From: Candidatus Poseidoniia archaeon
GTDB lineage: Archaea > Thermoplasmatota > Poseidoniia > MGIII > CG-Epi1
Direction: 5' to 3'
Assembly: GCA_029936395.1 (NCBI GenBank)
Contig: JAPYSW010000004.1
Span: 1-49,711, forward strand
DNA length: 49,711 bases
The notes below the pieces were generated by a model that saw only the letters and a list, made by a program, of their open reading frames with translations, made no database searches and had not been told where the DNA came from. Of this stretch, positions 2,477 through 7,564 are shown piece after piece; the stretch's first letter is position 1; each line of letters starts with the position of its first letter. Both the position numbers and the translations under genes were made by a program.

Positions 2477-3292
2477 ATGCCTGAACTACCTGAAGTCGAT
2501 TCCTATCGAACGGGATTAGCACCAACAATGATTGGGTGGAAAATTAAGGGTGGTAAAGCACTATGGAAAAACGCTTCAGATGCCGATTTTTCCAGCATAA
2601 TTAATCAAAAAATAACTGGATTTGATAGAAGAGGGAAATATTTGATACTTAATTTAGACCAATCAAACATTATTATTCATTTAAGGATGACGGGAAGAAT
2701 AGATTTAACAGAAAATGAAACTCCAAAATATACTACTGTTGAATTTGATTTTTACAATAATAAGAAAATGTGCTTAGTTGATTATCGTAAATTTGGTAAA
2801 GTTTGGATTGTGGAAGATATTGAAAAAATTGTAGGACATCTAGGTATTGAACCTCTAAGTAAGCAATTTACATCCAAAAAATTTAGATTAATGTTTGAAA
2901 AGCGTAAGGGTACACTTAAACCATTATTACTGAATCAACAATTCATAGCTGGAATTGGCAATTATCTGGCTGATGAAATTTTATTTCGAGCTAATCTACA
3001 TCCTCTAAGGACTGCAGATACACTTAACAAAAAAGAAGTAAATGAATTGTATCTATCAATTAGACACATTATTAGAAAGTCAATACGTTTTGGAGGTACA
3101 ACCTTTCTAACATTTAGAGGACCTGAAGGTAAAAAAGGAGAATTTTGGAAGAAATTACAAGTTTTTAGGAAAACTGGAGAACCCTGTCCACATTGCAAAA
3201 GACCCATTACTAGAATAATAGTAGGACAAAGAAGTACTCATTTATGTGAAAACAAACAAAAACTACATAAAAACTTCATTAACATTAAATAG
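2477..3292 (+). CDS. mutM: Formamidopyrimidine-DNA glycosylase (Fpg/MutM family)
   Basis: N-terminal MPELPEV catalytic signature, GIGNYLADEILFRANLHP H2TH region, C-terminal CPHC...RSTHLCENKQ zinc finger with the 4th Cys missing. Confidence 0.93.
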   Translation: MPELPEVDSYRTGLAPTMIGWKIKGGKALWKNASDADFSSIINQKITGFDRRGKYLILNLDQSNIIIHLRMTGRIDLTENETPKYTTVEFDFYNNKKMCLVDYRKFGKVWIVEDIEKIVGHLGIEPLSKQFTSKKFRLMFEKRKGTLKPLLLNQQFIAGIGNYLADEILFRANLHPLRTADTLNKKEVNELYLSIRHIIRKSIRFGGTTFLTFRGPEGKKGEFWKKLQVFRKTGEPCPHCKRPITRIIVGQRSTHLCENKQKLHKNFINIK

Positions 3293-3327: not shown

Positions 3328-3867
3328 ATGATGGCTGCTAAGAAAGTATCAAAAAAGATTGTAGTACTAGGAGATCCTGCTGTAGGAAAGACTAGTTTAA
3401 TCCGCCGTTTTGTTATCAATGCATTTGATGATAAATATCTAACAACGATTGGAGCTAAAATCGTAAAGAAAGAAGTCCAACTAAGATCTGGTGGAGCAAA
3501 GCCAGATATCGATGTAACACTAATGATTTGGGATGTTGCTGGACAAAAAACCCTTGGAAACGTAAAACAAGCCTATTATCGTGGTTCAGAAGGCGCAATG
3601 ATTGTTTGTGATATTACTCGTAGAGAAACACTTCTTTCAACTATTGACTGGATTAAAACCTTAATGCAAGTAACTGGAGAAATACCTGTAGTTCTACTTG
3701 CTAACAAATGTGATTTAATGGATAAGGCGCTTTTTGGTGAGAAAGAAATGTCTGAAGTATCTAAGAAACTCAATGCCTCTTTCATGATGACCTCTGCAAA
3801 GGATGGTCGAAATGTTGGAGAAGCTTTCCAGAACATATCAGAAAGCATGCTTGAGGGAATGTCATAG
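3328..3867 (+). CDS. Rab/Ras-like small GTPase
   Basis: G1 GDPAVGKTS, switch I YLTTIGAK, G3 WDVAGQ, G4 NKCDL, G5 TSAKDG. About 180 aa single domain. No C-terminal prenylation Cys. Confidence 0.9.
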   Translation: MMAAKKVSKKIVVLGDPAVGKTSLIRRFVINAFDDKYLTTIGAKIVKKEVQLRSGGAKPDIDVTLMIWDVAGQKTLGNVKQAYYRGSEGAMIVCDITRRETLLSTIDWIKTLMQVTGEIPVVLLANKCDLMDKALFGEKEMSEVSKKLNASFMMTSAKDGRNVGEAFQNISESMLEGMS

Positions 3868-3881
3868 AAGGGCTAAGCCCT

Positions 3882-4331
3882 ATGGATGACTTCTACGACA
3901 CTGATGTTGGTGTACAAACATCTGACATTTTAGTTTTGCCAAGTACCTTTCTTGGTACATTATGGAAAGAGCTACAAAGTGTTGGCAGTGATAAAGCACG
4001 TAGTATTCTGTTTAACTGTGGGCATACTGTTGGTAAAAGCCTATCAGCCAATTATATAGAAATGGGTACTGAAGATTTAGATATGGTCTTGAACCAAGCT
4101 TGGGCTGAGGCTGGATTAGGGCATTTATTTGTTTTAGACACTAATGAAGAACATATTGTTGTAAAGTTAGAAAACCTTCTTGAAATTGGAATAATTGGTT
4201 CTGAACATAATTGCGATTTTACAGGAGGTTGCCTGACTGGAGTGCTTGAGGGGCTCCTACAACAACCTTATAGCGTGGTAGAAGAAATGGTAGGAGAAGA
4301 GACAAGACTCTTCAAGTTTGACAAAAAGTAA
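3882..4331 (+). CDS. V4R-domain (TRAPP/Bet3-fold-like) protein
   Basis: ARSILFNCGHTVGKSL, EAGLGHLFVLDTNEEHIVVKLEN and CDFTGGCLTGVLEGLLQQPYSVVEE match the V4R pattern (GlG..., C.f..G.l.G.l). The usual distal Cys pair is absent. Confidence 0.7.
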   Translation: MDDFYDTDVGVQTSDILVLPSTFLGTLWKELQSVGSDKARSILFNCGHTVGKSLSANYIEMGTEDLDMVLNQAWAEAGLGHLFVLDTNEEHIVVKLENLLEIGIIGSEHNCDFTGGCLTGVLEGLLQQPYSVVEEMVGEETRLFKFDKK

Positions 4332-4333
4332 AC

Positions 4334-5239
4334 ATGGCAGCAAAGTGGCAAAAAACATTAGACGATTTATTATACAACGGAGACCTTGACGGGGCGTATA
4401 ATTTACTAGATGGAATCTTAAGAGAAAACTCTGGAGATTTACAAGCTAGACTAGCTTTTGGAAAAGTACAATATGAGTTAGGTGATCCTGATAATGCAAG
4501 AAATACATTTGATACAGTTCTGAAGAATACTCCTCGGAATGGTGAAGCTCTCAAAGGAAAAGCCGAAGTCTGCGAATTACTTGGTGAATATGAGGAAGCT
4601 CTCCGTTCATACCACATGGCAACACAAGCTAAACCTAAAGATATAGAGGGATGGAAATCTATGGGTATTCTTTTAACTAAATTAAAGAAATTTGGTAAAG
4701 CAGATAAATGCTGGAATGCAATTTTAAGATTAAATGCAAAAGATGCTGAAGCTTGGTACAACAAAGGATACGCCAAGATGTTAGTTCAGAAATATGATGA
4801 TGCCGAAAAATGTCTTAAGAAAGCAATACAATTTAAGGCAGATATGAAAGAAGCTCACAATGATCTAGTAATGGTTCTTAGAAAGAAAGGTGATAACAAA
4901 GGTGCACTAATCATTTGTAATCATGCACTCAAATCCCACGATAGTGATGACACACTTCATAGAAACAAAGGAAATATTCTTTATGCTCTTGATAGACCTG
5001 AAGAAGCTCTTGAAGCTTTTGAAAAAGCCTTAGATTTGAATCCTTATGTTGTTGACACTTGGGTAAACAAGGGGACTGTTCTATGGAAATCTATGCAAAT
5101 GCGAGATGAAGCACTCTCTGCATTTGATAAAGCATTAGAAATAAACCCACAATTTATGGCCGCTGTTGATTCAAGAATAAATCTTGAAGCTGAAATTAAA
5201 GCAAATAAACCTAGCTTCTTTAAACGAATATTCGGATAA
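4334..5239 (+). CDS. Tetratricopeptide repeat protein
   Basis: Repeated ~34-aa TPR units (e.g. AEAWYNKGYAKMLVQKYDDAEKCLKKAIQFKADMKEA; RPEEALEAFEKALDLNP). Confidence 0.9.
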   Translation: MAAKWQKTLDDLLYNGDLDGAYNLLDGILRENSGDLQARLAFGKVQYELGDPDNARNTFDTVLKNTPRNGEALKGKAEVCELLGEYEEALRSYHMATQAKPKDIEGWKSMGILLTKLKKFGKADKCWNAILRLNAKDAEAWYNKGYAKMLVQKYDDAEKCLKKAIQFKADMKEAHNDLVMVLRKKGDNKGALIICNHALKSHDSDDTLHRNKGNILYALDRPEEALEAFEKALDLNPYVVDTWVNKGTVLWKSMQMRDEALSAFDKALEINPQFMAAVDSRINLEAEIKANKPSFFKRIFG

Positions 5240-5281: not shown

Positions 5282-7564
5282 TTGCCAAATGACATACCCT
5301 TAGATGAACTTATGGAATTGTGGAGATCTTTCTTCCAAGACTCCCGAAACAGACCAATTGATAAATCTGGTAAAGAAGCTTCAGCTCCAAAATGTATTAC
5401 CTGTAAAGGCGAAGGTAAAATAAAAATTCAAGGCGGAATAAAGTTAGATGATACTGAACCTATCACAAAAATATGTCCAAATTGTAATGGTGAAAGAGTT
5501 GATTCAAAGAGCATACCAACTTATGGAGATGAGATACAAAAAGTATCTAAAGAATACCCTAAAGGTAACCGATCTGTAGGTGTAACATGGGAAGCTGTTG
5601 CAGACTTTAATGCAAGACTATCAAGTAATCTAAGATGGAATCTAGATGAAACACTAGATGCGGCAAAAAAAGTTGTCCAAGAATTTATAGATGACGATAC
5701 AAAGATTAGAGTTAGAGAAGAGCACCGCACAAAAGTAGATTTAGATGTCGTACCTGTTGGAATTCCTGATGAATTATATGTTGTAGATATAAGTGGATTG
5801 AGAAAAGAACATCTCTATCGTACTGTTAAACTAAAAGGTTTAGTTAGAAAAGCAACTCCAGTAAGACCCCGTATGGAAATTGGATTATTTGAATGTGAAT
5901 GGGAAAGACATCGAAACTCCTATATTCAAGATTTTTTTACTTTAGAAAAACCTATCAAATGTACTTCTGAGGGTTGTAAATGTGCTGACTTCAAATTAAG
6001 AGAAGATTTATCTCAGTTTATTGATTCACAAAAAATAGAAATACAAGAATATCCTGAAGATTTGCCACCAGGATCTCAACCTGAAAGACTAACGGCATAC
6101 TTTGAAAGTTCATTAGCACATAAAATTCAACCGGGAGATAGAGTGGCTATAGTAGGCATAATAAAACCTAAAACTCAATTTCAGGGTAGACGGCAAAAGA
6201 GTGAATTTGATATTTATCTATATGCACACAGTATAGATGAAAAAATAGGAGAAGATGAAAATATAGAACCAACTGCTGCGGAATTAATGGAAATTAAAGA
6301 ATTATCTCAACAAGAGGATGTAGCTGAAAAAATACGTGATTCAATATCACCTACGATTTTTGGAATGGAATGGGAAAAAAGAGCTCTTGCTCTACAGCAA
6401 TTTGGTGGAGTACACAAAGAATTACCAGATGGCACTCGTATTCGTGGCGATATCCATATGCTGATGATGGGAGATCCGGGATTAGCTAAATCTCAATTAC
6501 TTAGATCTGCTGCAAGAATTGCTCCGCGTGGTGTTATGGCGACAGGTAAATCTACTTCAGCTGCAGGATTGACGGCTGCAGCAGTTAGAGATGAATTTGG
6601 AGAAGGAAGGTGGAGTCTTGAGGCTGGAACCCTCGTTCTTGCATCTGGAGGTATTGCTTGTATTGATGAAATAGATAAGATGTCTGAAGAAGATAGATCC
6701 TCTATGCATGAAGCAATGGAACAACAGACTATTAGTATTGCAAAAGCTGGGATAAATGCTCAACTTAAATCCAAATGTTCAGTTCTTGCAGCTGCCAATC
6801 CACGCCGTAGTAGATTCGATATGACTATGCCACTTCCACCTCAGGTCAATATGCCCGTTTCTTTATTAAGCAGATTTGACATATTTTTCATAATTATTGA
6901 TGAGCCTAACCCTGAAAGAGATAATTTATTAGCTGATAGAATTTTAGAAAGTCATAGAACAGGAGGTGCATTAATTCCGGGTGAAAAGATTGTGGATAGT
7001 GATTTAGATATAAGATCACTAGAAGGACCTATTAGCTCACGTATGTTAAAAATGTACATTGCTTATGCTAAAAAATTAAGACCTATTATGACTTCACAAG
7101 CTCAATATAAAATAAAAGAATATTATACTGGACTAAGAAGAAGATATCACAGCGTAGATGATCAAGACAAAACTATGCCCATTACTCCAAGACAATTGGA
7201 ATCTATTATAAGATTGGCTGAAGCTGAAGCTAAAATGTATTTATCTAATACTATTGATGTTAAACACGCAGATAGTGCTATTGATTTAATGAATTTATTC
7301 CTTAATGTCACTCTTGGCGGAGATGTGGACTTTGCATTCTTTGGTGTTGATGCAAATCAAAGAAAGAAAGATGCTAACCCTATGACTCTGTTAAGAACTG
7401 TTGTAAAAGAATCAGGACCTGGAGGTATTGATGAAAAAGAAATTTATGATCGAATGAGAGAAGAGGGTGGATATAGTATGGAGAAAGTAGAGCAGTATCT
7501 CCATAAAGCAAGAGAAGAAGGTACACTATTGAAAGATGGATATGATAAATGGAGACCCGTTTGA
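5282..7564 (+). CDS. mcm: Replicative DNA helicase MCM
   Basis: Walker A GDPGLAKSQLL, Walker B LASGGIACIDEIDKM, arginine finger LLSRFDIFF, C-terminal winged helix. N-terminal extra CxxCxGxG-type Cys motifs. Confidence 0.96.
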   Translation: MPNDIPLDELMELWRSFFQDSRNRPIDKSGKEASAPKCITCKGEGKIKIQGGIKLDDTEPITKICPNCNGERVDSKSIPTYGDEIQKVSKEYPKGNRSVGVTWEAVADFNARLSSNLRWNLDETLDAAKKVVQEFIDDDTKIRVREEHRTKVDLDVVPVGIPDELYVVDISGLRKEHLYRTVKLKGLVRKATPVRPRMEIGLFECEWERHRNSYIQDFFTLEKPIKCTSEGCKCADFKLREDLSQFIDSQKIEIQEYPEDLPPGSQPERLTAYFESSLAHKIQPGDRVAIVGIIKPKTQFQGRRQKSEFDIYLYAHSIDEKIGEDENIEPTAAELMEIKELSQQEDVAEKIRDSISPTIFGMEWEKRALALQQFGGVHKELPDGTRIRGDIHMLMMGDPGLAKSQLLRSAARIAPRGVMATGKSTSAAGLTAAAVRDEFGEGRWSLEAGTLVLASGGIACIDEIDKMSEEDRSSMHEAMEQQTISIAKAGINAQLKSKCSVLAAANPRRSRFDMTMPLPPQVNMPVSLLSRFDIFFIIIDEPNPERDNLLADRILESHRTGGALIPGEKIVDSDLDIRSLEGPISSRMLKMYIAYAKKLRPIMTSQAQYKIKEYYTGLRRRYHSVDDQDKTMPITPRQLESIIRLAEAEAKMYLSNTIDVKHADSAIDLMNLFLNVTLGGDVDFAFFGVDANQRKKDANPMTLLRTVVKESGPGGIDEKEIYDRMREEGGYSMEKVEQYLHKAREEGTLLKDGYDKWRPV

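Follow-up and report, generated by a model that had tools for sequence, protein, structure and literature searches.

In a Marine Group III (MGIII) archaeon of the Poseidoniia, a small GTPase gene is directly followed by genes for a V4R/Bet3-fold protein and a TPR protein, and we consider it probable, at roughly 60%, that this trio is a version, streamlined in MGIII, of a GTPase-V4R module found across Thermoplasmatota, in which V4R would be a dedicated ligand-responsive regulator of the GTPase and the TPR protein a scaffold or effector. To judge by gene neighbourhood, GTPase and V4R are functionally linked, as a sequence-only reading of this DNA had supposed, since the two are recurrent neighbours in 8–10 families of the phylum, and one locus shows neither the full strength nor the full breadth of this link. 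The window, by which we mean the whole stretch of 49,711 nucleotides analysed, contains the trio and its flanking genes as follows:

2477..3292, + strand: Fpg/Nei-type DNA glycosylase, flanking gene (PF01149 and PF06831)
3328..3867, + strand: Ras/Rab-like small GTPase (ORF1), 179 aa, single domain with five G motifs (PF00071, 8.9e-41)
3882..4331, + strand: V4R/Bet3-fold protein (ORF2), 149 aa, without DUF835 (hhalign, AF2, Foldseek)
4334..5239, + strand: TPR protein (ORF3), 301 aa (PF00515, 4.9e-35)
5282..7564, + strand: MCM helicase, flanking gene (PF00493, 4.3e-88)

The three ORFs lie in tandem on the + strand with gaps of 14 nt and then 2 nt, exact to the base as first read. Comparisons of close MGIII relatives put dN/dS well under 0.1 for the GTPase and V4R alike, with dS near saturation in some pairs, which shows that both are real genes under purifying selection, and because dN is far below dS in these two and the gene order is conserved, the ORFs are not due to chance. 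Fpg and MCM are conserved neighbours that are not thought to be part of the module; Fpg is also conserved in G015, a genome of genus g3 that itself lacks V4R and TPR and in which MCM lies directly 3′ of the GTPase. No phage (PHROGs) or relevant defence (PADLOC) matches were found.

Using Pfam profile searches we identified ORF1 as a Ras-superfamily small GTPase, with the match to Ras far above that to Arf (1.1e-13) and all motifs intact within its one domain (G1, GDPAVGKTS; G2, TTIG; G3, WDVAGQ; G4, NKCDL; G5, TSAK), in agreement with the single-domain Rab/Ras-like GTPase originally described. It is the sole PF00071 match in the host genome, and its top PDB match is a Thorarchaeota Rab (Thor-Rab, 2.6e-33), with Rab23 next. 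The protein ends in MLEGMS, and the lack of a C-terminal Cys that had been remarked on here holds in all MGIII sequences, which are thus without the prenylatable residue of eukaryotic-type Rab. Examination of the RabF motifs by eye showed YYRGS (F4) and VCDIT (F5) to be Rab-like and IGAKI (F1) and KTLGNVK (F3) to be unlike Rab. As far as sequence goes, the resemblance is that of an archaeal Rab-like grade and not membership in eukaryotic Rab. ORF3 has five TPR_1 stretches and no domain beyond TPR, confirming its earlier description.

The V4R identity of ORF2, also proposed from the letters of this locus, was settled by profile-profile and structure comparison. Alone, ORF2 did not match Pfam V4R and gave sub-threshold matches only, all within one fold superfamily (Cellsynth_D, XylR_N and MsvR, with 1.1e-6 for the MsvR C-terminal region). 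Eight of 11 MGIII members matched Pfam V4R weakly (best 0.004), and XylR_N and Cellsynth_D too, with the single sequences remaining under the Pfam cut-off, and a profile of these 11 close sequences found nothing meaningful in the PDB. As a reference set (A3) we used 16 V4R domains encoded next to GTPases outside MGIII, in other families, all 16 of which match PF02830, and hhalign comparison of the MGIII set with these gave 99.1% (E 5e-19, 132 columns), against 1.4% for an unrelated control profile. Likewise, AF2 modelled the MGIII V4R with a pLDDT of 84.9 and a pTM of 0.80 from the combined alignment, the pLDDT being 62 without the V4R partners of other families. Using Foldseek, the top 34 PDB matches of this model were MopR/PoxR/DmpR, BcsD, MJ1460, YslB and TRAPP subunits, followed by H-NOX; MopR came first (8e-7, TM 0.75), then PoxR, BcsD, the MJ1460 V4R and the TRAPP subunits, which included human TPC6 (TRAPPC6; 1.3e-4, TM 0.68), Bet3-Trs33 and Ypt1-TRAPP. 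E-value and query-normalised TM-score both place the model closer to MopR/PoxR than to TRAPP, which target-normalised TM-score does not.

Two Gx3G helix pairs (G47/G51 and G116/G120), which formed the tie between V4R and Bet3 in the work of Podar in 2008 (PMC2253512), show no variation across the MGIII sequences or the 16 other V4R partners, and the MGIII V4R also keeps W74, E101 and C111. C111 is part of the metal site, whose two later cysteines are present in every one of the 16 other partners and missing from every MGIII sequence, although mouse TRAPPC3 is likewise without this site, which is not universal in the fold (PMC10933270). The TRAPP profile PF04051, to which the sequence-only reading had pointed, matched none of the 11 MGIII and 16 other V4R members at E<=10 and nothing in the host genome at E<=1. 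Based on these profiles and the model, ORF2 is a divergent V4R/Bet3-fold protein that does not belong to the TRAPP family by sequence. A second, longer V4R of about 250 aa is present in some MGIII genomes on another contig, away from the GTPase (L061, G014:C4:81884-82066; G013:C46:24804-25157).

Wherever the locus is assembled in genera g1 and g2, the trio is contiguous (10 of 10 MGIII genomes, 11 loci), with the TPR gene after V4R in every case and MCM after the trio save in G013, where the contig ends; apart from G015, genomes that lack the trio either give no match to MCM or have it truncated by the end of a contig, and are uninformative. Conservation within MGIII was considered as evidence of function and rejected, because the flanks are equally conserved. 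Between g1 and g2 the GTPase is 82–89% identical, and CysS, Fpg, V4R, TPR, MCM, methyltransferase and CSL4 are 42–60% identical. G015 retains CysS, Fpg, GTPase and MCM in the same order, with the GTPase alone at the locus (L012:1489-2016 / L148) and V4R and TPR missing from it, and no V4R was found genome-wide in this assembly (79% complete, 6% contamination). Its GTPase shows only 41% identity; CysS (60%), Fpg (48%) and methyltransferase (54%) are conserved as in the g1–g2 comparison, and MCM (49%) and CSL4 (34%) are somewhat lower. In switch II of this GTPase, WDIAGQ is replaced by WDIAGN, which alters DxxGQ to DxxGN and the catalytic Gln to Asn. In this one genome, the divergence of the GTPase is at most suggestive of a relaxed or changed function after loss of V4R and TPR. 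The synteny anticipated for MGII and MGIII was therefore present in 10 genomes of two MGIII genera and absent from G015 and from MGII, in whose genomes protein searches found neither the trio GTPase nor the trio V4R. Other, longer V4R proteins occur in some MGII genomes.

Profile searches of 246 Thermoplasmatota genomes (with families numbered f7, f13 etc.) detected GTPase-profile homologues in 34 genomes, with up to 14 per genome, and PF02830 V4R in 57, the two being found together in 23 genomes compared with 7.9 expected (Fisher 2e-9, not corrected for relatedness). Within 1 kb, PF02830 accompanied 20 of 90 GTPase matches, against an expectation of 0.15, on the same strand in all 20 and downstream in 19, and in six-frame profile searches the distance from the end of the GTPase domain to the start of the V4R domain was mostly -13 to +80 nt; the remaining 70 matches had no PF02830 within this distance. 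Pairs were present in f7, f13, f22, f25, f26 (in reverse order), f30, f37 and f38, and beyond these eight PF02830 families in MGIII, whose V4R escapes PF02830, and as a contig-edge case in f24. Two GTPase-V4R pairs lie in tandem in f7, and the partner outside MGIII is often a V4R-DUF835 protein, whereas the MGIII V4R has no DUF835. MCR was found in eight of nine genomes of f30, f37 and f38, which identifies these families as methanogens, presumably Methanomassiliicoccales, and each of the nine genomes sampled from them that bear the GTPase has the pair. Following GTPase-V4R-DUF835 in the methanogens is a pyruvoyl-dependent arginine decarboxylase and often a zinc-ribbon protein (L106:3424-3894, L124:3743-4213, L132:3289-3759), and in f13 V4R-DUF835 is followed by a membrane protein that overlaps it by one base and is UbiA-type prenyltransferase-like by eye (L108:2772-3704). 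Three non-Asgard genomes (G124, G072 and G080) each encode 10–14 Rab-like GTPases, some with C-terminal extensions of about 90–110 aa.

V4R-linked GTPases are clustered on the GTPase tree, so the 20 pairs are not 20 independent events. Linkage to V4R requires 7 changes on this tree, at least 3 of them forced by supported branches, which would make it either old with losses or repeatedly gained. Paired GTPases and V4Rs also co-diverge, with a correlation between their distances (rho 0.60, Mantel p 0.0002) that is confounded by species phylogeny. Furthermore, the sister clade of the MGIII GTPase branch (support 82/89) is formed by proteins of families f13 and f20 in which TPR is fused to the GTPase N-terminus, and these fusions independently support the third member of the trio.

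V4R is linked to Roadblock/LC7 as well, in 15 pairs within 1 kb compared with about 0.17 expected, all on the same strand and with V4R first and a gap under 90 nt in 14. These pairs also occur without an adjoining GTPase, for example at G061:C4:94054-94534 and G205:C30:77138-77609. The roadblock fold is related to longin. Among the genomes compared, GTPase and Roadblock lie within 5 kb of each other in f25 only, where a same-strand run encodes GTPase, V4R-DUF835, V4R and Roadblock (G088 C85 L092:2689-5169; G093 C540 L101), so that this cluster brings together the folds of a TRAPP core and its Rab. No Roadblock/LC7 (Robl_LC7) match was found in the MGIII host genome, while a search for longin with PF04099 gave no matches anywhere, controls included, and is uninformative.

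The sequence-only reading had suggested that the trio may be a minimal analogue of Rab-TRAPP. That V4R acts as, or within, a membrane GEF for the GTPase, with a Bet3-like function in vesicle or membrane traffic, we regard as decidedly unlikely. V4R is a homologue of Bet3 (PMC2253512) and has both Gx3G motifs, TRAPP subunits are among the structural matches of the MGIII V4R, and the phylum links V4R to GTPases and Roadblock, with all of them in one f25 cluster. However, the host genome has neither Roadblock nor PF04051, no member of the V4R sets matches PF04051, the GTPase is without a lipid anchor, and the structure is nearer to MopR/PoxR by all but the target-normalised TM-score. TRAPP exchange, moreover, requires a longin pair together with Bet3 and Trs31, the Bet3 fold alone being no GEF in eukaryotes (PMC10152722), which makes it unlikely that a lone V4R acts as a TRAPP-style GEF, and a minimal Rab-TRAPP in MGIII is not supported. 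A broader proposal, that V4R in Thermoplasmatota bridges Ras/Rab-like GTPases and Roadblock as a pre-TRAPP exchange or recruitment complex, reduced in the MGIII trio, we also consider unlikely; if true, the association of Bet3, longin and Rab would predate Asgard archaea and eukaryotes or have arisen outside them.

It is possible, if somewhat unlikely, that V4R is instead an effector, the GTP-bound GTPase recruiting V4R (elsewhere V4R-DUF835) as the signalling protein of an MglA-like polarity or signalling circuit. This would accord with the frequent occurrence of V4R domains in sensor and regulatory proteins (PMC2253512), with DUF835, listed as an inactive-KaiC-like domain, being also a response-regulator output domain (PMC5847659), and with prokaryotic Ras-like GTPases adjoining signal-transduction partners (PMC4316618), but it is V4R that adjoins the GTPase directly while the genes further on vary, which is a better, though not decisive, fit to a regulator. 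Short co-directional genes of a compact genome might also be kept together with the conserved Fpg-MCM neighbourhood and have no functional link, as the equally conserved order of Fpg and MCM and the intact flanks of G015, without V4R and TPR, would allow; this is highly improbable, given that eight other families have the pair too, over 100 times as often as expected and invariably on one strand, and that f7 has two such pairs in tandem. An ArvABC-type vesiculation module, in which the GTPase would drive extracellular vesicle formation, is scarcely credible: in Haloferax a small GTPase that shares its operon with two small partners does drive vesicle formation, but there the GTPase, ArvA, has Arf as its nearest relative and the partners ArvB and ArvC are DUF2073 and DUF2072 (PMC10927574), whereas the neighbours of the MGIII GTPase are V4R and TPR, and not DUF2073 or DUF2072, and its match to Ras (8.9e-41) far exceeds that to Arf.

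Under the preferred reading, with V4R as regulator, the GTPase would be a GDP/GTP switch, and V4R, probably as a dimer, would bind it and, when a lipid or a small hydrophobic or aromatic ligand occupies the V4R pocket, would change the nucleotide state of the GTPase or where it is located. As scaffold or effector, the TPR protein would then connect the switched GTPase with the targets. Proteins of the V4R fold bind hydrophobic or aromatic ligands, such as phenols in PoxR and palmitate in TRAPPC3 (PMC10933270), which makes a ligand- or lipid-responsive regulator of an anchorless GTPase the simplest model; ligand binding by the MGIII V4R may differ, as two of its three metal-site cysteines are lost. 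Physical binding, ligand, direction of control and cellular process are what we infer in this model, and on sequence V4R could be an exchange factor, a GAP, a GDI-like chaperone or an effector.

We found no description of a GTPase-V4R pairing or operon in the open-access literature; a survey of the prokaryotic Ras superfamily mentions neither V4R nor TRAPP (PMC4316618), and a survey of archaeal Rab lists Rab-like GTPases in Thermoplasmatales and Aciduliprofundum without mention of TRAPP (PMC4915359). On the strength of fold and sequence motifs, Bet3 was proposed in 2008 to have originated from V4R (PMC2253512), without evidence of any prokaryotic V4R working with a GTPase, and the phylum-wide pair now provides defined cognate pairs with which to ask whether regulation of Ras-like GTPases by Bet3-fold proteins is older than eukaryotes. 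V4R also joins Roadblock as a second class of partner for the Ras-like GTPases of prokaryotes, and some of the eukaryotic trafficking toolkit may have been assembled in lineages other than the known relatives of eukaryotes. What was read from the one locus thus stands for the GTPase, V4R and TPR identities, the conserved trio and the functional link, and is not supported for synteny in MGII or for a minimal Rab-TRAPP in this organism.

Like the TRAPP core (Bet3/Trs31/Trs33 plus Bet5/Trs23) with Ypt1/Rab1, the MGIII trio combines a Bet3 fold with a Rab-like GTPase, but it has no detected Roadblock, no PF04051 and a GTPase without a prenylatable Cys; Thermoplasmatota at large resemble TRAPP further in linking V4R to Roadblock, of longin-related fold. 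The phenol-sensing V4R domains of PoxR/MopR/DmpR are the closest solved structures and the closest sequence profile to the MGIII V4R family, although they are parts of transcription activators, whereas the MGIII V4R is a free protein beside a GTPase and, unlike these sensors, is without two of the metal-site cysteines. In MglA-MglB and the actinobacterial conservons a Ras-like GTPase has a dedicated adjoining partner, as in MGIII, but that partner is Roadblock/LC7 and not V4R (PMC4316618), and ArvABC, which is also an archaeal small GTPase operon with small partners, pairs an Arf-like ArvA, and not a Ras/Rab-like GTPase, with proteins unrelated to V4R or TPR (PMC10927574). Asgard archaea have the same protein classes as MGIII, with Rab-like GTPases, roadblock and TRAPPC3/V4R (Tran et al. 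2024, PMC10933270), including a Rab-like GTPase that is likewise without a C-terminal Cys. For Asgard MK-D1, however, that study reports no general operon association of GTPase genes with RB, longin or TRAPPC3 (PMC10933270), whereas in Thermoplasmatota GTPase and V4R are tightly linked, often together with DUF835 or TPR.
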